Source: an uncultured bacterium
Lineage (GTDB): Bacteria > Verrucomicrobiota > Verrucomicrobiia > CAIQCK01
Reading direction: 5' to 3'
DNA length: 55,229 nt
NCBI GenBank assembly: GCA_903870275.1
Contig: CAIQCK010000024.1
Coordinates: forward strand, 1 to 55,229
Shown: in pieces, positions 29,226 to 44,423 of the stretch
Layout: every line of letters begins with the position of its first letter
How positions within the stretch are numbered: the first letter of the stretch is position 1
Made by a program: the position numbers and the translations under genes
The notes under the pieces: generated by a model
Seen by the model: only the letters and a program-made list of their open reading frames with translations
Told to the model about the DNA's origin: nothing
Databases searched by the model: none

Positions 29226-30470
29226 TTATTTGATGTATTGTTGGAGAGTGAAAATGGGCAGCAGCATGCCGATGAAAATCGCGCCGATGAATCCCGCCAC
29301 GAGCAACAGCAGCATCGGCTCGGCGAACGCGACCACGGTCTTGAGCTGGCGGTCGAGGTCGCCTTCGGTGACGTTCGCGATGCGGATCAGCTCGCCGTCG
29401 AGCCGGCCGCTCTCCTCGGCGACGGACACCATTTCCAGCACCGATTTGGGAAACAGCCTGCGGCATTCCGCCAGACTCTGGCCGAGTCGGCCGCCTTCCT
29501 GCACGCGCTCGATCGAAGTCGAAACGGCGTCCACGAGAATCTGGTTGCCGATGGACTTCTGGGCCACGCGCAGGCCCTGCACGAGCGGCACGCCGGCGCC
29601 GAGCAGCGTGCCGAGCATCCGGCAAAAACGCGCCATCGCGAACTGCGCCACCAACGGCCCGACGCCCGGCGACCGCAGCATCAACCCTTCCCACGCGCGC
29701 CGGCCTTGCTCGGACAGAAACCACGTCCGCAGCAGGTAGCTCCCAATGAACACGCCGGCCAGAACGAACAGGCCGTAGGACCGTGTAAACTCGCTCACGA
29801 CGATGATTGCTTGCGTGATGGCCGGCAGCGCGCCGCCGAAACTGGCGAAAAGTTTTTGGAAGCGCGGAATGAAAAACACCAGCAGGAACACCAGCACCCC
29901 CAGCGCCAGCACCACCAGGATGCACGGATAAAGCATCGCGCTCATGACTTTCGAGCGCAGTTCTTTTTCGCGCGTCTGGAAATCGGCGATCTGCGCCAGC
30001 ACCACGTCGAGAAACCCGCCCGTCTCGCCCGCCTGGACCATCGCGACATAGACGCGCGGGAACACGTCCGGCGACTTCGCCATCGCGTCGGCCAGCGACA
30101 TGCCGTCAATGACCAGATCGTGGACCTCCTTCCACTTGGCCGAGGCCACGGGCGTGGAGGCTTCGGTGAACAGAATCACCAGCGCGCGGCTCAAGGCGAC
30201 GCCGGCAGCCAGCAGGCTCGACAACAGCCGCGTGAAATTCTCCAGCGCCTTCGCCGTGACCTTCTGCGATTCGAACTTGAAGGAAAAACCTCCGAACGCG
30301 AGCGATCCGTTCGCGGGCTTGGATTCGGCGGCGACGTTTTCCACAAGCCGGACCGGACGCAGCCCGCGGCCTTCCATCTGGCGGAGCGCGTCGGGCCGTC
30401 CCGGGGCGTCCAGACGGCCCTCGGTCATCGTGCCGTCGGCTTGCAGCGCTTTGTATTGAAACGTCGGCAT
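29226..30470 (-). CDS. gspF: GspF inner-membrane platform protein
   Basis: 414 residues. The start MPTFQYKALQADGTMTEG is the typical GspF opening. Two copies of the GspF domain are visible, each with the FTRLLSSLLAAGVALSRAL or ARFCRMLGTLLGAGVPLVQ type of motif, and three transmembrane helices lie around 210-240, 260-280 and 385-405. It sits in the inner membrane and links the ATPase GspE to the pseudopilus. The start is 5 bases from the GspE stop. Confidence 0.95.
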   Translation of the reverse strand: MPTFQYKALQADGTMTEGRLDAPGRPDALRQMEGRGLRPVRLVENVAAESKPANGSLAFGGFSFKFESQKVTAKALENFTRLLSSLLAAGVALSRALVILFTEASTPVASAKWKEVHDLVIDGMSLADAMAKSPDVFPRVYVAMVQAGETGGFLDVVLAQIADFQTREKELRSKVMSAMLYPCILVVLALGVLVFLLVFFIPRFQKLFASFGGALPAITQAIIVVSEFTRSYGLFVLAGVFIGSYLLRTWFLSEQGRRAWEGLMLRSPGVGPLVAQFAMARFCRMLGTLLGAGVPLVQGLRVAQKSIGNQILVDAVSTSIERVQEGGRLGQSLAECRRLFPKSVLEMVSVAEESGRLDGELIRIANVTEGDLDRQLKTVVAFAEPMLLLLVAGFIGAIFIGMLLPIFTLQQYIK

Positions 30471-30475
30471 GGGAA

Positions 30476-32191
30476 TTATTGCTGAGCGGGCGCCGCGGCG
30501 GGCTGGGTCGTGCGCTCGACTTCCTTGGCCGTTGTCACGCTCAGCACCTCGTCCACCGTCGTGATGCCGAGCCGCACAAGCCGCCAGCCGTCTTCGGCCA
30601 GGGTGCGCATTCCCTTGCGACGGGCCGCGTCGCGGATCTGGTCGGTCGAGACGTTCTTCAAAATCAGTTCGCGGATTTCGTTGTCGGCGTCCATCCACTC
30701 GAAGATCGCGTGGCGCCCGTGAAACCCGGTGTTGCGGCAGGCCCGGCAGCCGACGGAACGATAGACCACCGCGTTCGGCGGCAGGCCGAGGCGCTCTTTG
30801 AAACTCAGCATGGCCGGCGAACGGTCCTCTTCCTTGCACTGCTCGCACAGCACGCGCACGAGCCGTTGCGCGAGCACCGCTTCGAGCGAGGACGCGACGA
30901 GATACGGCTCGACACCCATGTCCACCAGCCGCGTCAGCGCGCCGGGGGCGTCGTTGGTGTGCAGCGTCGAAAAAACCAGGTGGCCGGTGAGCGACGCCTG
31001 CACGGCGATCTGCGCGGTTTCCTGGTCGCGAATTTCGCCGATCAGGATCACGTCGGGGTCGTGGCGCAAAATCGAGCGCAGGCCGCGCCCGAACGTCAGG
31101 CCGGCTTTTTCGGAGACCTGAATTTGGTTGACGCCTTTGAGCTGGTATTCCACCGGGTCTTCGATGGTGATGATCTTGCGCACGGCGTCGTTGATTTCGT
31201 TGAGCGCGGTGTAGAGCGTGGACGTCTTGCCGCTGCCGGTCGGGCCGGTGACGAGAATGATGCCGTGGGGCATTTCGAGCACGCGCTGGAAGCCGTCGAA
31301 CTCGCGCTTGTCCATGCCCAGTTCGTTCAAGCCGCGCAACGTGGAGTTTTGGCGGAGCAGGCGCATGACGACCGCCTCGCCGTGCAGCATGGGGATGACC
31401 GAGACGCGGATGTCCACCTCGGCGTCGTCAATGCGGATTTTGATGCGCCCGTCCTGCGGCAACCGTTTCTCGGCGATGTTGAGGTGGCTGAGGATCTTGA
31501 CGCGCGAGACGATGGCGGGTTGAAAGCGCTTGAGCTGCGCGGGCACCGACGTCTCCTGCAATACGCCGTCAATCCGGTAGCGGATGCGGAACTCGTCCTC
31601 GAACGGTTCGAGGTGAATGTCGGAGGCGCGCAGTTCGATGGCGTCGCGCAAGACCTGGTTGACGAAACGAATGATGGACGCTTCGTCCCCGGCGGCGGTG
31701 TCGAGGTTGGTGTCCTCGAAATTCTCGTCAACGACCTGGAGGCCCTTTTCCTGATCGAGCGTGCCGATGGTATCGGCACCGACGCCGAGGCGGCGTTTGA
31801 TTTCGCGCTGGAGCGATTCGGAGGAGGCCAGGACCGGCTTGAGGTTGAGGCCGGTGAGTGTTTTGAGCGCGTCGAGACCCTGCGTGGCGAAAAGACGGCT
31901 GGTGGCGATCTCGACGGTGCCGTTGACGCGCTTGAGCGGCAGCAGCTCCTCTTTCAGCAGAATGCGGGCGGGGAATAACGAGAGAAGCTGGCGATCGGGT
32001 TCCAAATCTTCGAGCGTGGTGAAGTCGAGGCCGTATTCCCTGGCCAGCCACCGCAACACGTCCTCTTCGCTCGCCGGCGGCGGCTGGACGCGCCGCAGCG
32101 CCGCCGTGTCCGCCACGGAGAGTTGATGGGCCGCCACCATGCGGTCGAACAACTGCGCAGCTACGGTTTCGGGAGCAAAAGTCTCACCCAT
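30476..32191 (-). CDS. gspE: GspE secretion ATPase
   Basis: 571 residues. An N-terminal GspE domain (about 10-140) is followed by the ATPase core with Walker A VTGPTGSGKTSTL, the Asp box RASDIHLEP, Walker B ILIGEIRDQETA and the His box TLHTNDAPGAL. A tetracysteine zinc motif is present (LCEQCKEE ... GCRACRNTG), as in GspE. It powers pseudopilus assembly. It is the first recognised machine gene of the operon, after the small secreted protein gene, which stands upstream on the same strand. Confidence 0.96.
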   Translation of the reverse strand: MGETFAPETVAAQLFDRMVAAHQLSVADTAALRRVQPPPASEEDVLRWLAREYGLDFTTLEDLEPDRQLLSLFPARILLKEELLPLKRVNGTVEIATSRLFATQGLDALKTLTGLNLKPVLASSESLQREIKRRLGVGADTIGTLDQEKGLQVVDENFEDTNLDTAAGDEASIIRFVNQVLRDAIELRASDIHLEPFEDEFRIRYRIDGVLQETSVPAQLKRFQPAIVSRVKILSHLNIAEKRLPQDGRIKIRIDDAEVDIRVSVIPMLHGEAVVMRLLRQNSTLRGLNELGMDKREFDGFQRVLEMPHGIILVTGPTGSGKTSTLYTALNEINDAVRKIITIEDPVEYQLKGVNQIQVSEKAGLTFGRGLRSILRHDPDVILIGEIRDQETAQIAVQASLTGHLVFSTLHTNDAPGALTRLVDMGVEPYLVASSLEAVLAQRLVRVLCEQCKEEDRSPAMLSFKERLGLPPNAVVYRSVGCRACRNTGFHGRHAIFEWMDADNEIRELILKNVSTDQIRDAARRKGMRTLAEDGWRLVRLGITTVDEVLSVTTAKEVERTTQPAAAPAQQ

Positions 32192-32226: not shown

Positions 32227-32811
32227 TTACGGCAGCAAGCCCAGCAACGTGGCTTGCGCCTCTTGAGTGGCGGTGAGAACCTTGCGGAGGTCTTCCTGCG
32301 CCGCGGCGAGTTTGGCTTCCTTGTCCTTCTTCGATTCGTGGAATTTGTCGAGGGCGGCCTTGACCTGTCCGGCGGGTGCCTTGTCGTCAAGGGCCTTTTG
32401 GAGCGCCTCGGCTTCGGGGCTTGGCGTGCCGAAGAAGCTCGGCCGGTTGCCGCTGGGCCGGTTGGCCTGATCACCGCCGCCGCGGTTGCTGTCACTGCTG
32501 CGGCTGCGGCCCAAACGCCCCATGCTCATGCGGCCGGCCATGGCCTCGCGGCCCGTTTCGATAACTTTCACCACGAGCGGTTGCACGGCGCTCCAATCGG
32601 CGTCCGAAAACCCGAGCTTTTCCTTGACGTTATCGAGGATTCGCTGTTGGAACTGAGCCGGGTCGAAGTTGCCGCGGCGGTTGGTGTCGCCTGGAGCCGG
32701 AGCGCCCGGCGCCGGCGCTGGCGGCGTGGTGTTTTGAGCCGACAAAGGTCCCGCGCACAAGCCGAACGCGGCGGCAAGCCCACAAGCAGCGAACAGGTGT
32801 TTGACTTTCAT
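32227..32811 (-). CDS. Small secreted helical protein upstream of the secretion operon
   Basis: 194 residues with a signal peptide (MKVKHLFAACGLAAAFGLCA). A Pro/Ala linker is followed by a helical part (FQQRILDNVKEKLGFSDADW ... PLVVKVIETGREAM), a Gly/Ser/Arg/Asn-rich loop (about 105-130) and a long charged helix (ALDKFHESKKDKEAKLAAAQ). The layout is faintly like Spy/CpxP periplasmic chaperones, but no clear signature is seen. A GGGAG ribosome-binding site supports the start. It is 35 bases upstream of gspE, so it is probably the first gene of that operon. Confidence 0.75.
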   Translation of the reverse strand: MKVKHLFAACGLAAAFGLCAGPLSAQNTTPPAPAPGAPAPGDTNRRGNFDPAQFQQRILDNVKEKLGFSDADWSAVQPLVVKVIETGREAMAGRMSMGRLGRSRSSDSNRGGGDQANRPSGNRPSFFGTPSPEAEALQKALDDKAPAGQVKAALDKFHESKKDKEAKLAAAQEDLRKVLTATQEAQATLLGLLP

Positions 32812-33064
32812 CTTTACGATCTCCCTATAGCGAACATTTTTTGAGTTTGACTGGCTGATTGCGGGCCGCCACGGAAGCACGGCGCGCAAATCGGAAATCA
32901 TAATCATGCACAGACGATGCCAACGCCTCATGCGCAGACGTCACAAGGGAAGCCGGCGATGGTTGCGCAAATCTTGCGCAACAAAACAATGGCGTTGCGC
33001 AAAAGTTGCGCGCGGCGTGGTCCGGAGGAACAGCCATAGAATGACTATGGCCGTGTCTCATGAC

Positions 33065-34282
33065 TCACAAGCACACACGCATCAGAGAAAAGTCATCGTC
33101 GAAAGAGTTGGTCCCGTGGATAGCGCTGATGCTGGCCACAATGTGGTCCAGATCGGAGACGCCTGGAGGCGCTGGCGATTCCAGAAGCTGCACAAATTCT
33201 TCATAGGTCCACAGAGAGCCGTCTGGACGGAAGATCTCATAGGCGCCGTCGCTGAAGAGATACATTCTGGCGTAAGGCTGAATGTCGCAGGAGGCGCTCT
33301 TAAACGTCTCCTCCTGGGTGGCGCCGATGATGGTCCCGCCTGTCTCCAACAGGACTGGCCGCGCCGAGGAGGCATCAGGACCGGTGATCAGCACGGCCGG
33401 CGGATGACCGCCGGAGGAGTATGAAAGCCGCCGCCGTTTCTTGTCGTAAACCCCATACCAGATCGTGAAATACATATTATTATGTTTTTCCATCTGGAAA
33501 CTGGCGTTCAAGGCCGTCAGCACTTCGCCGGGCTCGAGGAAATCCGTGTGCGGGAGGGTGCGGGAACGTATGACGTTCATGGCGGAGATGGAGAGCAAGG
33601 CCGCGCCAACACCGTGTCCGCAGACGTCGAGGATATACATGACCAAGTGGTCATCGTCTATCCAGTGATACCCGAGGGCGTCGCCACCGAGCTCCGTTGA
33701 AGGGACAAAACGCCATTCAGCCTTTTGCTCGCCCATCAGCGGCGCGGGCAGAAGCGACCGCACATAGGCGGCAGCCTCCGCCAGCTCGGCGGCCAGCTTC
33801 CTCTGGCTCTCCATCAGCGCGCGATATGCCTCATTGCGCTGGAGTTGGGCGATGTAGCCGGCCGAGTGGTATCGAATCCGGGCGATCAACTCCACTTTGT
33901 CCGGCAGCTTGACCAGATAGTCGTTGGCGCCCAGGGCAAATGCTTCGGCCTTGGTCTCAGGTTCTTCCTTGGTCGAGAGCACGATCAGGGGGATGTCGCG
34001 GGTCTTGGGATTGGCGCGGTAAAACTTGACCAACGTGAGGCCGTCCACCTCCGGCATGACCAGGTCTTGGAGAATGACTGTGGGCTGGAGCTCCGTTGCC
34101 ATCTTCACCGCCTGGGTCGGATCGCTGCAGTAGTAGAAGTTGATGTCCTTGTCCGTCGCCAACATGCGGCGCACCGCCTCCCCGATCATGGCCTGATCAT
34201 CCACAAGGAGAACCTTGATGGCGTGTTGGGTAAGCGGGCTTACCGATGGATCATTTATCGCGGGAGGGGCAGGCTGTGTCAT
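33065..34282 (-). CDS. WspR-like receiver fused to SpoIIE/PP2C phosphatase
   Basis: 405 residues. The receiver (residues about 22-150) is strikingly like that of WspR: VLLVDDQAMIGEAVRRML, VILQDLVMPEVDGL (phospho-acceptor Asp73), GANDYLVKLPDKVELIARIR and EAYRALMESQRKL at the linker. Where WspR has GGDEF, this protein has a SpoIIE-type Ser/Thr phosphatase domain: ELGGDALGYHW, LDVCGHGVGAALL, LFSDGAYE and FDDDFSLM, so metal-binding Asp residues are kept. It probably dephosphorylates an anti-sigma antagonist or similar protein when phosphorylated by the CheA. No such partner gene is in the window. Its start overlaps cheB by ATGA. Confidence 0.95.
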   Translation of the reverse strand: MTQPAPPAINDPSVSPLTQHAIKVLLVDDQAMIGEAVRRMLATDKDINFYYCSDPTQAVKMATELQPTVILQDLVMPEVDGLTLVKFYRANPKTRDIPLIVLSTKEEPETKAEAFALGANDYLVKLPDKVELIARIRYHSAGYIAQLQRNEAYRALMESQRKLAAELAEAAAYVRSLLPAPLMGEQKAEWRFVPSTELGGDALGYHWIDDDHLVMYILDVCGHGVGAALLSISAMNVIRSRTLPHTDFLEPGEVLTALNASFQMEKHNNMYFTIWYGVYDKKRRRLSYSSGGHPPAVLITGPDASSARPVLLETGGTIIGATQEETFKSASCDIQPYARMYLFSDGAYEIFRPDGSLWTYEEFVQLLESPAPPGVSDLDHIVASISAIHGTNSFDDDFSLMRVCL

Positions 34283-35346
34283 GGGATGCTCTCTTTCATG
34301 CTCTGGGGCCGTTGATTGAGCACATGGTTAACAATGGCGGTGGCGATACTGGGCAGCGGCAACACCCGATCCACCGCGTCGAGGTCCTTCGCCGCCTTGG
34401 GCATGCCGTAGACGATGCTGGTCTGTTCGTCCTGGGCGATCGTGAGCCAGCCGGCCTTTCTCAGACGGAGCAGTCCTTCGGCGCCATCGCGGCCCATGCC
34501 GGTGAGCAACGCGGCTATGCCGGTGAGGGGCCAACAGGCGGCGGCGCTCTTGAAGAAGACATCCACCGAAGGGCGATAAAAAGTTTCAACGGGGTCGCGG
34601 CTGTAGTCGAGAGTCAGGTCCGGCGCCATGAGGAGGTGGTCGTTAGTGGCGGCCAGCCAGGCCGTGCCCGGCTCGGGGCGGCATCCGGGGACGGCGGGCC
34701 GGACATGAAGTTGCGTCCGTCCATCCAGCCATCTCGCAAAATCGGTCGCGAACTGCACGTCCACATGTTGAATGAGGACAAAGGCCGCCGGCAGGTCCTT
34801 CGGAATTTGGGACAGGATTTCGGCCAAGGCTGTGGGTCCTCCCGTCGAGGCACCGATCACAACGAGGTGCATGCGGTTTTGAAGAAGCCCTTTGGCTGCC
34901 GGAGTTCTCGACGCGCCGGACTTCCAGACAACGGTCGCCGACGAGGTGCTCTTGCCAATCAAGTGGCCGATGCTCTCGATCTTGGCGAGCAGTTCCCTGG
35001 CGCCGCTCAGATTCCCATTGGCTCCGAGGACGGGTGTGTTGACGGCATCCAGCGCGCCGTGGCCCATGGCCTCGAATACGAGGGAGACATTTCCTTCAAC
35101 CGTTGCCGTGACAACAAGAATCGCGCATGGCGAGTGAGCCATGATCCGGCGGGTCGCCTCCACGCCGTTCATCACCGGCATGATGAGGTCCATGAGGATG
35201 ACGTCGGGCCGGTCCGACTCGCACTTGCTCACGGCCTCTGCGCCGTCGCGGGCGATCCAGGCGACGGTGTGCGTTGGGCAACTCGTCACCGCACGCCGGA
35301 GGGCTTCCACCGCCATCAGCAGGTCATTGACAATGGCGATCCTCAT
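34279..35346 (-). CDS. cheB: CheB methylesterase (WspF-like)
   Basis: 355 residues. A receiver domain begins MRIAIVNDLLMAVEALRR, with the IVND variant of the acidic pocket that is also seen in WspF, and the phospho-acceptor Asp53 (LMDLIMPVMNG). The C-terminal methylesterase shows the active-site Ser in VIGASTGGPTALAEIL, His in LIQHVDVQF and Asp in TGMGRDGAEGL. It removes methyl groups from the receptors to reset the pathway. It overlaps neighbours by ATGA on both sides. Confidence 0.96.
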   Translation of the reverse strand: MRIAIVNDLLMAVEALRRAVTSCPTHTVAWIARDGAEAVSKCESDRPDVILMDLIMPVMNGVEATRRIMAHSPCAILVVTATVEGNVSLVFEAMGHGALDAVNTPVLGANGNLSGARELLAKIESIGHLIGKSTSSATVVWKSGASRTPAAKGLLQNRMHLVVIGASTGGPTALAEILSQIPKDLPAAFVLIQHVDVQFATDFARWLDGRTQLHVRPAVPGCRPEPGTAWLAATNDHLLMAPDLTLDYSRDPVETFYRPSVDVFFKSAAACWPLTGIAALLTGMGRDGAEGLLRLRKAGWLTIAQDEQTSIVYGMPKAAKDLDAVDRVLPLPSIATAIVNHVLNQRPQSMKESIP

Positions 35347-37676
35347 GATTGTGACGCCCCGATCAAGTCCACAACGGCCTCCAGAAATGTTTCATCGTGA
35401 AATCCGCTCTTGGTGAAGTAGTAGTTTGCGCCGACCTCCAGGCCTCTCATGCGGTCTTCTTTGCGTTCCTTGTATGAAACCAGCATGACCGGCAGGGCGC
35501 TGAGCCGGCGATCCTGGCGGATGCGCTGCACCAGATCAAAGCCGTTCATTCGGGGCATGTCCACATCGCTGATGACCAGGCTGTATTGGCCCGAATAGAG
35601 GCTGTTCCAACCGTCCATGCCGTCCACGGCGACATCCACCTCATACCCGCGGTTTTGGAGGAGGCGCCGCTCCATTTCACGAACCGTGATGGAATCGTCC
35701 ACGACGAGGATGCGCTTCTGCTTCTTCTGGCCGGATTCGCCGGAGCCGGACCGGATCCTTTCGAGCCGCCGGCCGGAAAGCAGGTTCTGGATGGAGCGCA
35801 GCAGGTCCTCCACGTCCAGGATGAGCACGGGCGAACCGTCCTCCATCAGGGACACGGCACTGATGTCCTGCACCTTGCCCAAACGCGCATCCATGGCCCT
35901 GACGACCAATTCCCGCTCTCCGAGAAAACGGTCCACCTTGATCCCGTAACACGCCTGTTCGTCGCCAATGACGACGACGGGCCACTTCTTGCCTTGGGCG
36001 GCCTGCCCGGCCAGCCCCAAGACCTGCCGGGCATCCACCAGCCCGATATTCTTTTCGTTCAGGCTGATGTATTGACGGCCCTCGACCGTCTTCACTTCGG
36101 ATGGCACCACGTCAATCAGCCTCTCAATCCTGCCGAGCGGGAAGGCGAACGGGTCGCCCGAAATCTCGACAACGAGCGCGCGCATCACCGACCGCGTTAC
36201 CGGCATCTCGAGATGGAACTGGATGCCGCGGCCGGGACGGTTTTCGACACGCACCGAGCCGCTCACCTCGTGCAGGTAGGTCCGGACGACATCCAGCCCG
36301 ACGCCGCGGCCCGACACCTCGGTCACCCGTTCGGCCGTGGAGAAGCCCGGCAGAAACAGAAAGTCCAGGATCTCGGCCTCGGAAAGACGGCGGGCCGTGT
36401 CCTCGGGCGCGAGGCCCTTGCTCACGATCTTCTTCCGCAGCCGCTCGATGTCAATGCCCCGTCCATCGTCCGACACCGTGACCGTCAGGCGCCCGGCACG
36501 ATGCCGCGCCTCCAGTTTCAGCGATCCCTCGGCGCTCTTGCCCGCGGCCAGGCGTTCCGCTGGAGGTTCCAGACCATGATCCACGGCGTTCTGAAGGAGG
36601 TGCGTCAACGGCGCTTCGAGCTTGCTCAGAATGTCCCGGTCCACCTGGGTGTTCTTGCCGAGAATCTCAAACTTCACCATCTTGCTCTGTTGCTTGGACA
36701 GGTCGCGGATCAAGCGGGGAAACCCCGTGACCCCGTCGGCAAAGGGGCGCATTCGGCTGGCAATAGCCTCACGGTAGAGCCGGTCGGCCACGTCCGTGAG
36801 CTGGCGCGCGATCAGGTCAAACTCCTCGATCCGGCGCATCATCGTTTGATGGAACGACTTGGCTTTTTCGGACGCCTCGCGCAGTGTTTGGGACCGGCTG
36901 TTTGGTGATGAAGTTGTCTGGGCCGTGTCAGCATTCTTCATCAGGCGAAGCATCTCGACGTGGCGGCTTTTCAACGCCGCAAGGGCGGTCGTGAAGGCCT
37001 CGAGGCGATGCGCCTGCACGGCCGATTCCCCGGCGAGGCCCATCATGCGGCTCAGGTGCTCGGCCGAGATCCTGACGCCCCGGTCTTGCGCGTCCGCGTG
37101 CGCAGTCCCGGGAGCCGCCGGAGGTTGGGCCGCGGGAGCTGCTGGCCCCGCCTGGGCTTCGGGTTTCGGCGGCGGGGGAGTGACTGACGGCAAGGTCGTC
37201 GCGGCGGGCACTGCGGGCGGAGGTGGCTCGGCTTTCGGGGCCGGAGAGCTTGCCGCCGCCGGGACCTTCACGGCCTCCAAGCTGCCCAACAGACTGTCAA
37301 TCTCCGCCTGGTGGCTCGCGGTCCACTTCTCAAGTTCGTCATCGGGGAGCTTCGACATCCGGGCGAGCATGTCCACGCCCTTCAACAGGATGTCAGTCTG
37401 GTCCGGGCCGATGATTATCTGTCCCTTCTGCGCAGCGACAAAACAATCCTCCAGGGCGTGTGCCACCTTGACAATCTGGGTCAGTCCCACGATCCGGGCG
37501 GCGCCTTTGATGGAGTGTGCGGCTCTCATCAGACGCTCCAGCCACTGCTTGGATGTCGGGTCCTTCTCGATCTCCAGAAGGCCCTCGTTGAGTGTGGTCG
37601 TTTGCGTCTCGGCCTCCGAACGGAACAAGTCCATCATCGAGAAGTCGCTGAGGTTCTGGTTGCCGGCGGCCGTCAT
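35343..37676 (-). CDS. cheA: CheA-receiver hybrid histidine kinase (WspE-like)
   Basis: 777 residues. An Hpt domain with phosphorylated His54 (AAHSIKGAARIVG) is followed by a Pro/Ala linker (135-190), a dimerisation helix pair, the ATPase (VDHGLEPPAERLAAGKSAEG, VSDDGRGIDIERL, GRGVGLDVVRTYL), a CheW-like P5 domain and a C-terminal receiver (ILVVDDSITVRE, VISDVDMPRMNGFDLV). No CheY-binding P2 domain is seen. The fused receiver is standard for WspE and may act as a phosphate sink. It phosphorylates CheB and the receiver-phosphatase. It overlaps cheB and the CheW gene by ATGA. Confidence 0.96.
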   Translation of the reverse strand: MTAAGNQNLSDFSMMDLFRSEAETQTTTLNEGLLEIEKDPTSKQWLERLMRAAHSIKGAARIVGLTQIVKVAHALEDCFVAAQKGQIIIGPDQTDILLKGVDMLARMSKLPDDELEKWTASHQAEIDSLLGSLEAVKVPAAASSPAPKAEPPPPAVPAATTLPSVTPPPPKPEAQAGPAAPAAQPPAAPGTAHADAQDRGVRISAEHLSRMMGLAGESAVQAHRLEAFTTALAALKSRHVEMLRLMKNADTAQTTSSPNSRSQTLREASEKAKSFHQTMMRRIEEFDLIARQLTDVADRLYREAIASRMRPFADGVTGFPRLIRDLSKQQSKMVKFEILGKNTQVDRDILSKLEAPLTHLLQNAVDHGLEPPAERLAAGKSAEGSLKLEARHRAGRLTVTVSDDGRGIDIERLRKKIVSKGLAPEDTARRLSEAEILDFLFLPGFSTAERVTEVSGRGVGLDVVRTYLHEVSGSVRVENRPGRGIQFHLEMPVTRSVMRALVVEISGDPFAFPLGRIERLIDVVPSEVKTVEGRQYISLNEKNIGLVDARQVLGLAGQAAQGKKWPVVVIGDEQACYGIKVDRFLGERELVVRAMDARLGKVQDISAVSLMEDGSPVLILDVEDLLRSIQNLLSGRRLERIRSGSGESGQKKQKRILVVDDSITVREMERRLLQNRGYEVDVAVDGMDGWNSLYSGQYSLVISDVDMPRMNGFDLVQRIRQDRRLSALPVMLVSYKERKEDRMRGLEVGANYYFTKSGFHDETFLEAVVDLIGASQS

Positions 37677-38329
37677 ATGACACTCCTTGCCAGGCCGTCA
37701 AAAACCCGGGTCTCGTCAAGCAATCCGATCTTTCTCCCGGCGATGTTCAGCAACCCTCGCGTGAATTTCTGAAAGGATTTGGTCACGGTGGAGGGGACGC
37801 CACCCACGTCTTTTTCGGTGTAGGAAACCAGGCCGTGCATTTCATCCACGGGGAAGACCCAACTGATATTGTCCCTCTTGACGACGCAGAACCGGCGGCT
37901 CGCTCTTCGAGATTCCGCGCTCTCAGGTTCTTCGCTCTTTTCGACGCCCAGCAGGCTGCTCAGGGATACGCAAAGTTGTATCTCCCCGCGCACGCTCACC
38001 TGTCCCAAAAGAATCTGGTTGCTGCGATGGGGGATGTGTCTGACCGGCCGCACCCCGATAACCTCCACCCAGCAGTGCGCCGGCAGCGCGAGCCACTCCG
38101 ACATCAGCCGGAAGACATGGACGTACTTCGCGTCGCGGCTGGCGGCTTCCCGTTCCTGTGCCAGCAGCGACGCCCACTCGGCCAGGTATTCTTGTGGCGC
38201 CTCACGATTGAGCAGGGCCCGCCCTTCCTCGGAGAAGGTCTCGCAGTCGCGGCAATGCCCCAACTCGCTCAGCTTGGGGCACGAGCGGTCGCCTCTTACT
38301 CCTATGTTGTTCCAACACAAGTTTCTCAC
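37673..38329 (-). CDS. cheW: CheW adaptor (WspD-like)
   Basis: 218 residues. It starts with VRNLCWNNIGVRGDRSCP and DCETFSEEGRALLNR, a cysteine-bearing N-terminal extension typical of WspD, followed by the CheW beta-barrel fold (NQILLGQVSVRGEIQLCVSL, ISWVFPVDEMHGLVS). The start is a GTG whose last two bases and the next A form the stop of the CheR gene (GTGA), so it was preferred to an ATG 38 codons upstream within cheR. It couples the receptors to CheA. Confidence 0.93.
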   Translation of the reverse strand: MRNLCWNNIGVRGDRSCPKLSELGHCRDCETFSEEGRALLNREAPQEYLAEWASLLAQEREAASRDAKYVHVFRLMSEWLALPAHCWVEVIGVRPVRHIPHRSNQILLGQVSVRGEIQLCVSLSSLLGVEKSEEPESAESRRASRRFCVVKRDNISWVFPVDEMHGLVSYTEKDVGGVPSTVTKSFQKFTRGLLNIAGRKIGLLDETRVFDGLARSVI

Positions 38330-39570
38330 AGCGCCCTCGCTTGCTGTTGAATTCGTGCCGCCCTGCGCCGCAACACCTCGGCGCCCGCCGAATCTCCACT
38401 GCGCTCCCTGATCAACGACAAATGGACAATTGCATCGTAGCATCGCTCGTCAAGATAGATTGCCCGGTTAAAGCACTCTTCCGCTCGCGGAAGTTTTCCC
38501 AGCCCTTGCAGAACGATCCCCAACAGGCAATAGGCGCCGGCGTTTGTGCCGTCCTCCCGGAGCATCCGTTCGCATATAGCCGCCGCCTCCGGCAATTGCC
38601 CCAAGTCGGCCAGTTGCCGCGCCGCTTCCACAGAATCCTTGGATTTGGGGATTTCACGCGGCGGCTGTTCCGTGATTTGAGGCGCGCCCGGCTTCTTCGG
38701 TGTAATCTGAACCGGTGGAGGGAAAGAAACCATCGAAGGAATGGCGGCCACCGCGCCGAATCCCGACGCCACTGGGCCGGGTTCGATCTTTCGAAAATGA
38801 AAGGCCGCGCGAGGATTCAACGGCACAAACCGCGCTGCCGGGAAACAGGATGTCTCCGCATGGCCCACGAAAAGCAAACCGTTCCGGGCCATGAGCCGCT
38901 CAATGACGCTCACGACACACGCGCGCGCCTCCTCGCCAAGATAGATCAGCAAGTTTCGACAGAACACGACATCATAGGGTAGCTTGCTCGCAAGGATATG
39001 CCCATCCAGAAGATTTCCCCGGGTGAAACTCACTCCTTGTCGAACCTGGTCTTTCAGCACGAACTCGTTCCCCACAGACTCAAAGTAACGGTTGCGCAAC
39101 GACACCGGGACGCCGCGAAAAGAATACTGGGTATACGCCGCGCGTTCCGCCTTGCGCAGCAAGGCGCGGCTGATATCCAGCGCATCTATTTCATACTCGC
39201 CCGACTTCAGGCCCGCCTCCATGAGCGCCATCGCAATCGAGTAAGGTTCCTCACCGCTGGAACAAGGGGCGCTCAGAATCCGCAGCGGCGCGGCATGCCG
39301 TGCCGGCATCCATTCATCGCGAGCATACTGACCGAGAGTGGCGAAAGGACCCTTGTCGCGAAAGAAAGAGGTCTCCGGTATCACCACGATGTCGACAAGG
39401 ACCTCCATTTCCTGCGGGGAAGACCGGAGCTTCTCAAGATACCGTTCCTCATTCTCCAGCTTGCAGACGGACATTCTCTCGCGGACAGCGCGGGCAAGGC
39501 TCTTGTCGCCCAGCACCTCGGGGCTCATCCCGATCGTCTCTTCCAGTAGTTTTCCAAACTGCGGCATCAT
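38326..39570 (-). CDS. cheR: CheR methyltransferase with TPR repeats (WspC-like)
   Basis: 414 residues. A CheR methyltransferase domain (VIPETSFFRDKGPFATLG, ILSAPCSSGEEPYSIAMAL, VVFCRNLLIYLGEEARA) is followed by a linker and TPR motifs (GAYCLLGIVLQGLGKLPRAE, near 340-400). The fusion of CheR with TPRs is diagnostic for WspC. It methylates Glu residues of the receptors with S-adenosylmethionine. Its ATG overlaps the CheW stop (ATGA); two adjacent ATG codons are possible starts. Confidence 0.95.
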   Translation of the reverse strand: MMPQFGKLLEETIGMSPEVLGDKSLARAVRERMSVCKLENEERYLEKLRSSPQEMEVLVDIVVIPETSFFRDKGPFATLGQYARDEWMPARHAAPLRILSAPCSSGEEPYSIAMALMEAGLKSGEYEIDALDISRALLRKAERAAYTQYSFRGVPVSLRNRYFESVGNEFVLKDQVRQGVSFTRGNLLDGHILASKLPYDVVFCRNLLIYLGEEARACVVSVIERLMARNGLLFVGHAETSCFPAARFVPLNPRAAFHFRKIEPGPVASGFGAVAAIPSMVSFPPPVQITPKKPGAPQITEQPPREIPKSKDSVEAARQLADLGQLPEAAAICERMLREDGTNAGAYCLLGIVLQGLGKLPRAEECFNRAIYLDERCYDAIVHLSLIRERSGDSAGAEVLRRRAARIQQQARAL

Positions 39571-40040
39571 TTCGCGCTTTCAACAGGCGGATTCCCGGCG
39601 AACAGCAGCCGCTCGACCTCGACGGGCAGCAGGTGCTTGGGAAGAACGCACTGAACCATGCCGCCCTCGTCGATGGCAATCTTCCCAAGATAGGGAGACT
39701 GCCCGGTCTCCACGCCCGCAGCGACAAAGTCCGATGGCTTTTTCTTGACCGCGTCGGTTACCGCTTCGGCGATGAGGCCCAACACTTTCCTGGCGCCGTT
39801 TTCGAGGGTGTAGTCAACCAGGATAATCCGTGTGCTCAACCGTTCCAGGCAGGGGGCGCCCAAAGTGAGCGTGCCAAGATTCAAGACGGGAACCACGACG
39901 CCGTGATAATTGAAGATGCCGGCCACGTAATCGGGCGTGCCCGGTTGCGGCCTGAGCGGAAGGCGCGGGATCACTTCGAGGACGTGCGCGGCCTCCAGCG
40001 CGTAACGTTCCTTGCCCAGTTTGAAGAGGATGAAAAGCAT
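39567..40040 (-). CDS. cheW: CheW adaptor (WspB-like)
   Basis: 157 residues, a single CheW domain: LFILFKLGKERYALEAAHVL, then YVAGIFNYHGVVVPVLNLG, then KVLGLIAEAVTDAV. It has the start position of WspB in the Wsp order (WspA-B-C-D-E-F). It bridges the receptor tips and CheA. It is 39 bases downstream of the second receptor gene and overlaps the cheR start. Confidence 0.94.
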   Translation of the reverse strand: MLFILFKLGKERYALEAAHVLEVIPRLPLRPQPGTPDYVAGIFNYHGVVVPVLNLGTLTLGAPCLERLSTRIILVDYTLENGARKVLGLIAEAVTDAVKKKPSDFVAAGVETGQSPYLGKIAIDEGGMVQCVLPKHLLPVEVERLLFAGNPPVESAK

Positions 40041-40079
40041 AATGTGTTGCGGGAAAGTCCTGTCGCCGTTCCTGGGTCC

Positions 40080-42179
40080 TTAGAGGTTGAACCTCGCCAC
40101 TTCCACCTGCAAAGACCTCGCAGCTTCGCGCAACTGCTCCGTCGCCACGTTCGACTGTTTCACCGATTCACTGGTCTGCTTTGCCCCCTCGCTTAAGTGC
40201 ACCATGGCCTCGCTGATTTGTTCGGCACCCTGCGATTGCGTCTTCATCCCATCGTTCAGCTTCTCGAACTGGCCCGTCACCTCTTTCACTCCCTCGATGA
40301 CCTGTCCTAACTGTCCGCTAATCTCTCCCACCGTCCTTACGCCGCGCTTCACCTCCTCGCTGAACTTGTCCATCTCCATCACGCCCACTGTTACCGAGCT
40401 TTGCATCTCCTTCACCATCGCCTCGATGTCCAACGTCGCCGCGGCGGTTTGGTCCGCCAGCCGCCGAATCTCGCGCGCGACCACCGCGAAGCCGAGCCCG
40501 TATTCGCCCGCCTTCGTCGCCTCAATGGCCGCGTTCAATGAAAGCAGGTTCGTTTGGTCCGCCACCTTGGTGATCGTCGTCACCACGCTGTTGATGTTCC
40601 CGGCCTTCTCGCTGATCACCGAGAGCTTCGACGAAATGGACGACGTCGCATCGACCAACTGCTTCATCGTCCCCTCCATGTTGCCAAGGCCTGTCCGGCC
40701 GCTGTCCGCCAGTTTCCGGGTCCCTTCCGCAGTGCCTTTAACGCCTTCCATCGTTCGGGCAAGCTCCTGCGCCGTCGCTGAGATTTCCTTCACCGCCGCC
40801 ACGATCCGGACTGTGGACGTCTCGAATTCCCCGACGGTCGCCTCCTGCTCCTTCGACGTGGCTGCAATCTCGACCGAAGCAGACGCCAACTGCGCGCACG
40901 ACTTCTGCACCTGCTCCAAGAGCGAAGCGAGGTTTGAGGTCATGGTGGAGATGGAACTCAGCAACTGCCCGCTTTCGTTGTAGTGCAGGGCGGCGTCCGC
41001 CGAAGACCGCGGCGACTTCCGGTTCATCGCCGCCAGTTCCTTCTCGATGGCGGGAATGGCTTGCTTCGCTTCGGAGATATTGCCCCGCGCGATCAAGTCG
41101 GCAACCCGGACGGCGCGGCTGATCGGCCTGGCGATCGCACCTGCAATCGCCGTGAGACTGAGCAACACGCCCACGGCAAACGCCACGCCGATGGCAATCT
41201 GTCTCCACATCATCGTCGAGGCATTCGCGAAAACTTCTTTCTCCGGGACTTGGATGATCACAAACCAGGGAGTGCCGGTCAAACCGAGGGTGATGGGCGC
41301 AAAAGCCGTCACCATCTTCTCGGCTGTCCTGGTGGTTTCCTTTGCTCCCTGCATCGTTCTCAGGTATTCGTCCGACGCATCGCCGAACGCCGCTTTCAAA
41401 GGCTTCCCCACGATTCCGGGATTCCCACTGGCCGCCGCGACCAGTCCCTTGTGACTGACGATGAAAATCCTGCCGGTCTTTCCGAAGACTTCCTTCTTGT
41501 CCACCAGGCTCTGCAGGAAATCCAGTGCCATGTCCACTGCCGTCATCCCGTAGTGCGTGCCACCAGCCATGATCGGCGCGACCAGCGTAGTCATGAGTGT
41601 TGGTTTGCCCTGTACCGGATAGATGTAGGGCTCGATGATACATTCCCGCTTCGTCTCGCGGGGCAGCAGGTAGTAGTCGCCCTTGCGCGCACCGGTTTCG
41701 TCTCGCGTCGTGTCCTCATAACCCACCATGGGTTCCACCACGATTTTGCCTTCCTTGTTCCGGCACCAATACGGGATATACCGGCCGCTGGAGTCGGAGC
41801 CGGGACTGTTCACGAACTTCGCATCCTGCCCGTCGAACGCGTTGGGCTCCCAACCGGTATAGGCGGCCACGAAGTCCGAGTTCCGTTCCAGAATCGCCTG
41901 CAGCATGGAATCCACGGTCTCTCGCGTTAGCTCCGCGCGTGCCGACTTGACGGTGGAGAGCGCGTTCGCCAGCGTCCGCGCTGTGTTCAGGGCGCCGCCG
42001 ATTACGAGGGCAATCTCATTGGCATCCTCCCTGGCCATGCTGGAAACGCTCTGCTTCGCGCTGTCCAAAGCAATGCCGCGGGTGGTGATGGACGTGTAGG
42101 CCACGACAATGCCCAGCGTGATGAACATGCAGAGCCCGACCCACAAGAGAATCTTGTTTCTGATGGACTTACGACGCAT
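40080..42179 (-). CDS. Methyl-accepting chemotaxis protein with dCache sensor
   Basis: 699 residues. A first transmembrane helix (about 10-30) is followed by a large periplasmic double-Cache-like domain (SDFVAAYTGWEPNAFDGQDA, PYIYPVQGKPTLMTTLVAPI, GMTAVDMALDFLQSLV) and a second transmembrane helix near 325-350. A short HAMP-like segment and a signalling domain with the hairpin tip ([20 protein letters not shown]) follow. No C-terminal pentapeptide for CheR tethering is visible. Its signalling domain is very close to that of the adjacent receptor, so both likely feed the same CheA. Its genomic place matches WspA. Confidence 0.95.
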   Translation of the reverse strand: MRRKSIRNKILLWVGLCMFITLGIVVAYTSITTRGIALDSAKQSVSSMAREDANEIALVIGGALNTARTLANALSTVKSARAELTRETVDSMLQAILERNSDFVAAYTGWEPNAFDGQDAKFVNSPGSDSSGRYIPYWCRNKEGKIVVEPMVGYEDTTRDETGARKGDYYLLPRETKRECIIEPYIYPVQGKPTLMTTLVAPIMAGGTHYGMTAVDMALDFLQSLVDKKEVFGKTGRIFIVSHKGLVAAASGNPGIVGKPLKAAFGDASDEYLRTMQGAKETTRTAEKMVTAFAPITLGLTGTPWFVIIQVPEKEVFANASTMMWRQIAIGVAFAVGVLLSLTAIAGAIARPISRAVRVADLIARGNISEAKQAIPAIEKELAAMNRKSPRSSADAALHYNESGQLLSSISTMTSNLASLLEQVQKSCAQLASASVEIAATSKEQEATVGEFETSTVRIVAAVKEISATAQELARTMEGVKGTAEGTRKLADSGRTGLGNMEGTMKQLVDATSSISSKLSVISEKAGNINSVVTTITKVADQTNLLSLNAAIEATKAGEYGLGFAVVAREIRRLADQTAAATLDIEAMVKEMQSSVTVGVMEMDKFSEEVKRGVRTVGEISGQLGQVIEGVKEVTGQFEKLNDGMKTQSQGAEQISEAMVHLSEGAKQTSESVKQSNVATEQLREAARSLQVEVARFNL

Positions 42180-42200
42180 AGAACTCCTCTTCCGTCCGGC

Positions 42201-44423
42201 CTAGACCTTGAAGCGCGAGGTCTCCGTCTGCAATGCCCGCGCGGCCTCGCGTAATTGCTCCGTGGCTTCGTTCGATTGTTTCACGGATTCGTTCGTCTGC
42301 TTTGCCCCCACGCTCAATTGCACCATGGCCTCGCTGATTTGCTCGGCCCCTAGCGACTGTGCCTTCATCCCCTCATTCACTCTCTCAAACTGCCCCGTCA
42401 CCTCTTTCACGCTCTTGATGATCTGGCCCAACTGTCCGCTGATTTCATCCACCTCCTTCACTCCTCGCTTCACATCTTCGCTGAACTTGTCCATCTCCAT
42501 CACCCCCACGGTCACCGAACTCTGCATCTCCTTCACCATCGCCTCGATGTCCAGAGTCGCCACCGCCGTCTGATCCGCCAGCCGCCGTATCTCCCGCGCC
42601 ACCACCGCAAATCCCAATCCGTATTCCCCCGCTTTTTCCGCCTCGATCGCCGCGTTCAGCGACAGCAGGTTTGTCTGGTCCGCCACCTTGGTGATCGTTG
42701 TCACTACGCTGTTAATGTTCCCCGCCTTCTCGCTGATCACCGAGAGCTTCGATGAGATGGACGTTGTGGCTTCAGCCAACTGTTTCATGGTCCCTTCCAT
42801 GTTTCCCAGCCCGGCCCGCCCGCTGTCGGCCAGGTGCCCCGTCCCTTCCGCCACGCCTTTGACTCCTTCCATCGTCTTGGCCAGTTCCTGCGCCGTCGCG
42901 GAAATCTCCTTTACGGCCGTCACGATCCGGGCCGTCAACGCCTCGAACTCTCCGACGGTTGCCTCTTGTTCCTTCGACGTCGCCGCAATCTCCGTCGAGG
43001 CGGATACCAACTGCACGCACGATTTCTGAACCTGCCCCACCAGCGAGCATAGATGCGACGTCATCGCCGCAATGGCCGACGACAACATGGCTGTCTCATC
43101 GCCTCCAAACCGGGCTCCCGGCGATTCCGCCGCCCCTGTATGCGATATCCCCATGGCCGCCACCTCGCGTTTTGCCGCGGCCAGGTCCCCTCGCGCAATG
43201 ATTTGAGCCACATCGGCTATCTTCCGGATGGGCTTGGCTACAGCGCCGCCCAAGAAGAGGGCAAGGACGACCGCGGCAATCATGAACAGGCCGCCGGCGA
43301 TGGCGGTGTTGGTGATCAGCCTGCCAATCGCGATCTCAATGTTCTCGCAAATCGCGTGGTATTCGTCATCGTAAACTCCCGCATTGATAATCCAATCCCA
43401 AGGCTCGTAATAAACCAGGGCGACGCGCTTGGTCCTCGCCGTCGCCTCCCCCTTGTTCTTCCACGGATACTGGTCAAAGAAGACCGTCCCTGGCGGGGTC
43501 GTCAGGGCTCTGTCCACGACATCCTTGATGATGGTTCGACCGTTCGCATCCTTCGTATCTAGGATATTCTCTCCGTTGCGTTCGCCGTCCTTGGAGAGAA
43601 CGTAACACCCCCGCTGGTCTCCCTTGGCTCCGATGACGCACACGTAGCCCGTCTTTCCCACGACGATGGACTGAATGGCGTCGCGAAGCTCCTTGAGCAC
43701 GTCGCTCATGTCCATGCCGACGTAGACCATGCCAACGATTTCTTTCTTGTCCGTGCCTTTCCAGATTGGCTCATACGCGGTTTCCTGGAACTTGCCGACG
43801 ACCTGTGCCATGCCGGAGTAGGTCTCTCCCTTCAGCACCTTCGCCAAAACCGGATTGTCCGTGCCGTCCGCCATCTTGGAGGGAATGTAGGTTCCAATGG
43901 TCCGCTTGCCCTCCTCGTTCCGAACGGTGGTGCATACGCGGAGCATGTCCCCTTCGGCGTTCATGCGCTGGAAGATGGTGCAATACTTTTGAGTGTATTT
44001 GGTGACCGCATCCACCACGGGCGACTCGACGCCCAATTCGACATTCTGTCCCAGCCAGACCTCTCCCACCATCATCTTCGGGAGAGAAACTTCCATCACC
44101 TTCTGCGTGAACTGATTACGCGCCTTCCAGGTCACGAGATCCTTGCCGAGGTTGATGCCGCCTGAGTGGCCAATCTCTTCCTTCGCCACGTTGAGCGTCG
44201 CCAGAAGGTGCCGGGCGGTCCCATCCCGAACCGTTTTGCACATGAGGTAGACTTGTTTGGCTGTCTTTTCGACCTCGCCTTGAGCAAAGGTGTCCATGTA
44301 ACTCAGAACCCGCTCCTGTAGCGGCCGCTTCTCAATCATCGTCAGGGTGACGGTCGCGGCCAGAGGCACCAAGGCCGCCAGCACAGCCAATCCAACCACC
44401 TTGTTTCTCAGCGAGAGTTTCAT
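42201..44423 (-). CDS. Methyl-accepting chemotaxis protein with Cache_3-Cache_2-type sensor
   Basis: 740 residues. An N-terminal transmembrane helix (about 7-27) is followed by a periplasmic sensor of about 340 residues ending in a single-Cache fold ([39 protein letters not shown]), a second transmembrane helix, and the HAMP-like and signalling regions. The tip region reads [20 protein letters not shown]. The start at [15 protein letters not shown] is supported by an AAGGAC ribosome-binding site. It is the first gene of the Wsp-like operon. The different sensor from its neighbour means that the pathway can integrate two inputs. Confidence 0.95.

Follow-up and report, generated by a model that had tools for sequence, protein, structure and literature searches.

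Wsp is the best-known chemosensory route to cyclic di-GMP (c-di-GMP). Here we describe a Wsp-type operon from an uncultured bacterium of the Verrucomicrobiota, encoded on a 55,229-nucleotide stretch of DNA (contig CAIQCK010000024.1 of assembly GCA_903870275.1, positions 1 to 55,229 of the forward strand; hereafter 'the window'), in which a SpoIIE/PP2C phosphatase takes the place of the GGDEF output domain. Eight genes run on the minus strand from position 44423 to 33065 in the order methyl-accepting chemotaxis protein (MCP), MCP, CheW, CheR-TPR, CheW, CheA-REC, CheB and REC-PP2C (Table 1), where TPR denotes tetratricopeptide repeats and REC a receiver domain. By Pfam, the MCPs have Cache sensors, there are two CheW proteins, CheR is joined to TPR, CheA combines Hpt, HATPase, CheW and REC domains, CheB has a REC domain of its own, and the output protein is REC-SpoIIE (131 bits against a cut-off of 25). 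An original prediction, made from the sequence, had proposed both the one-strand order and the exchange of GGDEF for SpoIIE/PP2C; gene calls and Pfam bear these out, and no GGDEF domain was found within the array.

The prediction had also described the junctions as mostly four-base overlaps, and these occur at five of the seven: CheW1/CheR, CheW2/CheA, CheA/CheB, CheB/REC-PP2C and, given a GTG start at 38329 (the mechanical ATG being at 38443), CheR/CheW2. The two junctions that involve the MCPs are gaps of 21 and 39 bases. MCP 1 starts either at 44423 or at an in-frame upstream ATG, 44516, from which the mechanical open reading frame (ORF) is read.

Table 1. Coordinates of the Wsp-type operon and of the domains of its output protein in the window
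Feature	Position	Strand	Basis
MCP 1, Cache_3-Cache_2 sensor	42201..44423	-	Pfam
MCP 2, double-Cache-like sensor; dCache_1 under its cut-off, MCP-like_PDC_1 over	40080..42179	-	Pfam
CheW 1 (WspB position)	39567..40040	-	Pfam
CheR-TPR (WspC-like)	38326..39570	-	Pfam
CheW 2 (WspD position); likely GTG start 38329, overlaps cheR stop	37673..38329	-	Pfam
CheA-REC (WspE-like hybrid kinase)	35343..37676	-	Pfam, CheA trees
CheB (WspF-like)	34279..35346	-	Pfam
REC-PP2C output response regulator, 405 aa	33065..34282	-	Pfam, alignments
WspR-type receiver domain, residues 22-137; D73 likely phospho-acceptor	33872..34219	-	Sequence comparison
One predicted helix (residues 129-177) between receiver and phosphatase; similarity to WspR falls near residue 160	33752..33898	-	AlphaFold2, identity blocks
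SpoIIE/PP2C phosphatase domain, residues 187-405; D201, D219, D345, D396, D397 invariant	33068..33724	-	Pfam, alignment

The receiver of the output protein is of the WspR type. Together with the start of the stalk it scores 213 bits to WspR of P. aeruginosa (3bre) and 202 bits to WspR of P. syringae (3i5a), and it is 69% identical to the receivers of two Pseudomonas loci, 70–71% to those of two Cupriavidus loci and 52–71% across 16 GGDEF rows, while the receivers of the same genome's two other REC-PP2C proteins are only 35% and 28% identical. Receiver scores form two groups, both in the fetched loci (98 score at least 145 bits, 120 at most 47, and none falls in between) and in the loci of the phylum (lowest of the high group 124, highest of the low group 49). 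Eighteen rows picked from the 98 were compared in blocks of 12 residues; against the five GGDEF-type proteins, identity is 58–90% over residues 28–159, except for two blocks of 45 and 53%, and stands at 72% in the block just before the boundary at residue 159, beyond which it is 32, 15, 22 and 12%, with a final block at 43%. Identity to WspR thus drops near residue 160, so that the receiver is of the WspR type but is joined to a PP2C phosphatase where WspR has GGDEF, with the swap point in the predicted stalk near that residue. The nearest named homologues of the output protein, at 85–87% identity, come from Verrucomicrobia metagenome-assembled genomes (MAGs).

AlphaFold2 (19 sequences; mean predicted local distance difference test score, pLDDT, 88; predicted template-modelling score, pTM, 0.68) models the joint as one helix, and the receiver-stalk region has no internal gaps in the 19 aligned members. 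Invariant in these members are D28, D29, D73 and K125 of the receiver and the five phosphatase aspartates listed in Table 1, presumed to form the metal site; a SpoIIE-type PP2C with intact predicted metal residues, as in switches of the RsbU/HsbR type, is therefore present. Among fold matches of the predicted structure in PDB, the best, and full-length, is RssB of Pseudomonas, followed by WspR. RssB has the same succession of REC, helical linker and PP2C and is a sigma-S adaptor (PMC12143880), so that REC-PP2C might be an array-controlled adaptor that binds a sigma factor or other target and not an enzyme. We think this unlikely, given the invariance of the presumed metal-site aspartates, the repeated linkage of kinase and STAS genes described below, and a receiver of the WspR and not the RssB type (RssB matches at 102 bits over the whole protein). 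For RssB of Pseudomonas itself, catalytic activity is described, next to an rsbV homologue (PMC12143880), so that the adaptor and enzyme readings can overlap.

The CheA protein places the array among Wsp systems. It is 49–51% identical over 87–91% of its length (best rows among the matches listed) to proteins on replicons of Cupriavidus, Azoarcus and Mesorhizobium, which belong to REC-GGDEF arrays: two annotated loci that we inspected read MCP, CheW, CheR, CheW, hybrid CheA, CheB and then a diguanylate cyclase or PleD-type regulator, and our own scan found REC-GGDEF in all five such plasmid loci (L049-L053). In a tree of the CheA kinase core (83 rows) the window falls within a clade of 69 rows with support of 100, which includes all 14 GGDEF arrays and leaves out 14 other CheA proteins (the outgroup), among them the second CheA of the same genome, from contig C30. 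This placement was unchanged when five long-branch rows were removed. Hence a position outside the Wsp class, which the original prediction had named as grounds for abandoning it, was not seen. The syntenic WspA-F core (MCP-CheW-CheR-CheW-CheA-CheB) is present, with two MCPs, as are both the CheR-TPR and CheA-REC fusions; CheR-TPR with a multidomain response regulator also agrees with the ACF (alternative cellular functions) chemosensory class, and of the Wsp pathway with WspR the WspR-type receiver is present and the GGDEF output absent. The eight-gene set is a Wsp-type chemosensory operon.

Within the Wsp clade, the nearest sisters of the window's CheA are two arrays of the same phylum, which have a PP2C output as well (support 99 and 97), and it lies outside the branch that holds 13 of the 14 GGDEF arrays. 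These were quick trees, from which three short matches (L077, L132, L136) were left out, and a tree scoring better than the free quick tree was found: one constrained to group PP2C rows apart from GGDEF, kinase and outgroup rows stood 24 log units above it and was not rejected (p-AU 0.94, by the approximately unbiased test). We do not claim that PP2C is the older output, since the CheA backbone does not settle the order and the quick tree is not the best one.

One scan of the named genome collection with the 19 aligned homologues matched at least 594 stretches, of which 557 were confirmed and the best 80 of the 557 kept; the query favours PP2C, and the counts describe PP2C arrays and not the ratio of outputs. 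Judged by neighbourhood, these best 80 loci comprise 63 with REC-PP2C, 9 with REC-GGDEF alone and 8 with other outputs. REC-PP2C follows directly after cheB at 34 of the 63 loci and lies directly before an MCP-to-CheB array at 6, with CheA inside the locus in 36 of these 40 array-adjacent cases; it diverges from an array at 4 of the 63, and at 2 the che genes are further away. The gene order cannot be attributed to chance, because the complete set ending in REC-PP2C recurs in 24 of these 80 named loci, which were fetched by means of the output protein; the 24 belong to eight named phyla, with three loci not assigned to a phylum, in a count that excludes loci showing only cheB beside REC-PP2C (L096, L098, L118, L150). 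At three loci, from two Elusimicrobia MAGs and Zavarzinella (L095, L101, L122), CheR and the second CheW read as one ORF.

The same kind of array also has other outputs. A Pfam scan of the eight 'other' loci, all but L157 and L166, showed the output to be a class III nucleotide cyclase in L153, L155 and L158, a hybrid histidine kinase in L160 and L161, and a PP2C in L156; L099 has a cyclase regulator in addition to PP2C, and two arrays of the window's phylum (L180, L184) have kinase outputs. Three cyanobacterial arrays (L156, L158, L162) end in PP2C, class III cyclase and GGDEF respectively, and their CheA proteins form one branch (support 98–99); GGDEF arrays also occur in alphaproteobacterial, deltaproteobacterial and cyanobacterial loci. 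Two MAGs of methanotroph type (L100, L105) have a full Wsp array with REC-GGDEF plus a divergent REC-PP2C, and in L105 a STAS gene begins 10 bases past the latter. A second, short WspR-type receiver protein (267–273 aa) follows REC-PP2C at L110:11222-12025 and G370:C130:2489-2911; in the former the receiver is the only domain that Pfam recognises.

The original prediction held, on the strength of the output domain alone, that the array signals by partner switching, that is, by dephosphorylation of a protein, and not by c-di-GMP. We looked in relatives for genes of the expected partners, an RsbW-like kinase and a STAS-domain protein, beginning with seeds from the window's own genome and continuing with profiles made from those matches and own-genome proteins. 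A kinase and/or STAS gene is linked to REC-PP2C or its array at 10 of the 63 named REC-PP2C loci, eight times within 1.3 kb of REC-PP2C and twice, in Alphaproteobacteria, upstream of the array's MCP; a weak match 7.8 kb off in L122 is not counted, and two of the loci with linkage to REC-PP2C (L123, L130) show no che gene. The order in L091 is REC-PP2C, kinase, STAS, and its output protein is the closest to that of the window among loci with context (82% in the receiver, best phosphatase score). No kinase or STAS gene was found at the 14 GGDEF arrays (9 named and 5 plasmid).

A sample of 387 genomes of the phylum gave stronger evidence. WspR-type receivers occur in 30 of the 387, by locus 23 with PP2C and 7 with another output or none assigned, and these loci gave no GGDEF match (the extra receiver in G370 lies outside the set). 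REC-PP2C adjoins cheB in 16 of the 23 genomes. In six of the seven others (G148, G128, G163, G228, G336, G342) it adjoins a kinase, the seventh, G314, having neither neighbour, and all seven encode a Wsp-like CheA elsewhere (41–54% identity, E 1e-144 or better), about 11 kb away in G228 and about 31 kb in G128 on the same contig, and on other contigs in the remaining five; three of these CheA proteins (L179, L181, L183) were placed in the tree. A kinase thus stands beside REC-PP2C in 6 of 7 genomes without a cheB neighbour against 1 of 16 with one (p 4.6e-4), the one being G162, where a longer stretch shows it 1 kb downstream. The kinase family itself, at E 1e-22, is present in all 23 REC-PP2C genomes against 94 of 364 others (p 2e-13), and in all of the 18 that remain (18 of 18) once the five genomes contributing query rows are set aside. 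Ranked by kinase match, the top 18 genomes include 15 with REC-PP2C, among them the five query genomes. Among genomes with WspR-type receivers and other outputs, the family is absent from G018 and G045 (kinase outputs), G271 (kinase-size output) and G243, and present in G217, G313 and G202 (output without assignment). We also asked, post hoc, whether a local phosphatase is missing from kinase loci where the genome has REC-PP2C (2 of 13 against 7 of 12, p 0.04); this comparison left out G205, G367, G314 and seven with a WspR-type REC-PP2C beside the kinase, and is not relied on.

The window's own genome contains 15 STAS, 24 HATPase_c_2 and 8 SpoIIE domain matches (7 of the last over the cut-off), and four of the HATPase_c_2 matches, at 67–101 bits, stand clearly above the rest. 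At E 1e-22 the profile of array-linked kinases has a single match in this genome among the 10 of 38 candidates that were scored, C34:37324-37722, with a STAS gene 132 bases downstream. We set the STAS and kinase genes of contigs C13, C28, C30 and C34 against ten kinases and six STAS proteins that are linked to an array or to REC-PP2C. For the kinases, that of C34 was the only own-genome entry in the best-eight lists, appearing in 7 of the 10 at 31–45% identity; the lists of L112, L119 and L130 contained no own-genome protein. The STAS protein of L094 prefers C13 and that of L105 prefers C28. We give about an even chance to the prediction that the partner in this genome is the C34 pair of STAS and kinase genes at 36.9–37.8 kb.

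On the other candidate contigs, C30 has another che cluster less than 20 kb from a block of STAS-STAS, a kinase-PP2C fusion and STAS (L174, L175), and C13 encodes, beside a STAS gene, a protein of 499 aa in which an RsbW-like kinase domain is accompanied by a weak acetyltransferase match under the cut-off (L171:6450-7949); no phosphatase was recognised in the 15-kb C13 stretch (L171). On the window itself, the minus-strand stretches 29226-32191 and 32227-32931, just 3' of the array, contain genes that we labelled GspF- and GspE-like by eye and a small secreted-looking ORF without a Pfam match.

Several results weigh against partner switching. Gene calls show no kinase or STAS gene beside the window's array, and a kinase occurs in none of the 16 cheB-adjacent 3.4-kb loci of the phylum, the window's own class, loci that extend less than 1 kb past the REC-PP2C gene. 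The difference in linkage between named REC-PP2C loci and GGDEF arrays (10 of 63 against 0 of 14) is not significant (p 0.19), and 17 of the 63 REC-PP2C loci show no che gene at all, 6 of these 17 with less than 3 kb upstream. The p value for co-occurrence overstates the evidence, the 23 genomes representing 12 families and independent events being fewer than genomes, and 5 of the 14 kinase query rows come from those 23. Within the genome, the STAS protein of C13 scores much like that of C34 against array-linked STAS proteins, and better against one of them, and a cyclic-nucleotide-binding PP2C about 2 kb from the C34 pair, beyond a thiamine pyrophosphate (TPP) enzyme gene, may be its real phosphatase; the C34 switch may accordingly have two phosphatase inputs, or only this one. 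The lack of a linked STAS gene in the window could suit a phosphatase directed at phosphoproteins of eukaryote-type Ser/Thr kinases, at chemoreceptors or at Che proteins, as could the 11 REC-PP2C loci that cover 3 kb or more upstream and show no che gene; neither a kinase nor a STAS gene occurs within 10 of these 11. Such targets seem the least probable of the alternatives considered, and only slightly less so than the others, given a SpoIIE-type domain and linkage and co-occurrence with RsbW-like kinases that recur. Partner switching has thus gained comparative support from the kinase and STAS genes beside REC-PP2C in relatives and from co-occurrence; for the window's array, with none beside it, we continue to infer it.

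The contrast with c-di-GMP signalling fares well in the assembly (7.13 Mb, 93% complete). The original prediction would have been undermined by a WspR-like GGDEF protein elsewhere, and we found none: the sole GGDEF protein of the assembly, on contig C35, reads by eye as PAS-PAS-GGDEF-REC, without an N-terminal WspR-like receiver, and the array's own WspR-type receiver is the only match at E 1e-25 or better among the 10 of 89 first-look candidates scored. An indirect route to c-di-GMP is conceivable, on the pattern of SiaABCD or HsbRAD, with a diguanylate cyclase under the control of the STAS switch; in Pseudomonas, HsbA and SiaC couple PP2C signalling to diguanylate cyclases (PMC6482189, PMC9239204), and the C35 GGDEF gene adjoins one that resembles HD-GYP by eye. 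We regard this route as improbable, the architecture and separate contig of the GGDEF protein arguing against it, together with the lack of any PilZ match in the assembly.

We consider it likely that the array signals by partner switching, through a CheA-phosphorylated receiver that would activate the PP2C phosphatase, which in turn would remove phosphate from a STAS switch protein. In this scheme the activity of CheA would depend on receptors with Cache sensors, and CheR-TPR and CheB would provide receptor adaptation. CheA would phosphorylate the WspR-type receiver at D73, and the dimer formed in this state would activate PP2C by way of the stalk. The putative substrate of the phosphatase is a STAS protein kept phosphorylated by an RsbW-like kinase; its dephosphorylation would give the kinase, or a further, presumed target, a new partner. 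More broadly, and with somewhat less assurance, we favour the view that a phosphatase-output branch of Wsp, which spans eight phyla or more and may form a single clade, sister to the GGDEF/kinase branch, couples arrays to STAS switches, and that the WspR receiver and stalk act as a general output socket for diguanylate cyclase, PP2C, class III nucleotide cyclase and hybrid histidine kinase.

A survey of 794 systems placed Wsp in beta- and gammaproteobacteria alone and gave either WspR or WspH as its output (PMC8552884), and Wsp gene names have been mentioned in Planctomycetes (PMC6461901). The same Wsp core and WspR-type receiver with a phosphatase output in eight named phyla, and with cyclase or kinase outputs in others, reach beyond that range. 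If our proposal is true, a system studied mainly as a c-di-GMP pathway would be extended, and receptor arrays with methylation-based adaptation would control protein partner switches. RsbU is activated via a coiled-coil linker, and such linkers have been proposed to let receivers swap among phosphatases, cyclases and kinases (PMC12143880); a single receiver type that occurs with four outputs, fused near residue 160, offers a natural test of that proposal. No description of a Wsp array joined to a STAS partner switch was recognised in the literature searched, in which subscription journals are sparsely covered.

Among known systems, the Wsp pathway of Pseudomonas and Betaproteobacteria (WspA-F and WspR) shares with the window its gene order, CheR-TPR, CheA-REC, two CheW proteins, WspR-type receiver and the start of the stalk, whereas the window has PP2C for GGDEF, two Cache MCPs and a CheA outside the main GGDEF branch. 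A further trait of that pathway is surface sensing by WspA; the sensor domains encoded in the window belong to the Cache type. RssB of Pseudomonas resembles the output protein in its REC, helical linker and PP2C and is its best fold match, but its alignment along the whole protein scores 102 bits, that of the WspR receiver 213, and RssB is not known to be array-linked. WspH is an output of the kinase type. The WspH systems of Burkholderia likewise combine a Wsp core with an output without GGDEF, but WspH lies 5' of its cluster (PMC8552884), whereas no non-GGDEF response regulator was found beside the window's array on the 5' side, its output being the 3' REC-PP2C. In the HsbR-HsbA and CrsR-CrsA switches a receiver-controlled PP2C sets the phosphorylation of an anti-sigma-antagonist, as we propose here, but it is HptB that feeds HsbR, not an array of chemoreceptors, and the HsbR regulator and its kinase form one fused protein (PMC6482189). 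ACF clusters with CheR-TPR are covered by a 2012 survey, which, in the accessible part of its text, gives no mechanism, partner genes or link to a WspR receiver (PMC3447774). Because the same survey lists a PP2C-type phosphatase among the response-regulator outputs of such clusters (PMC3447774), we regard the combination as known in kind and the window's array as a variant of it.

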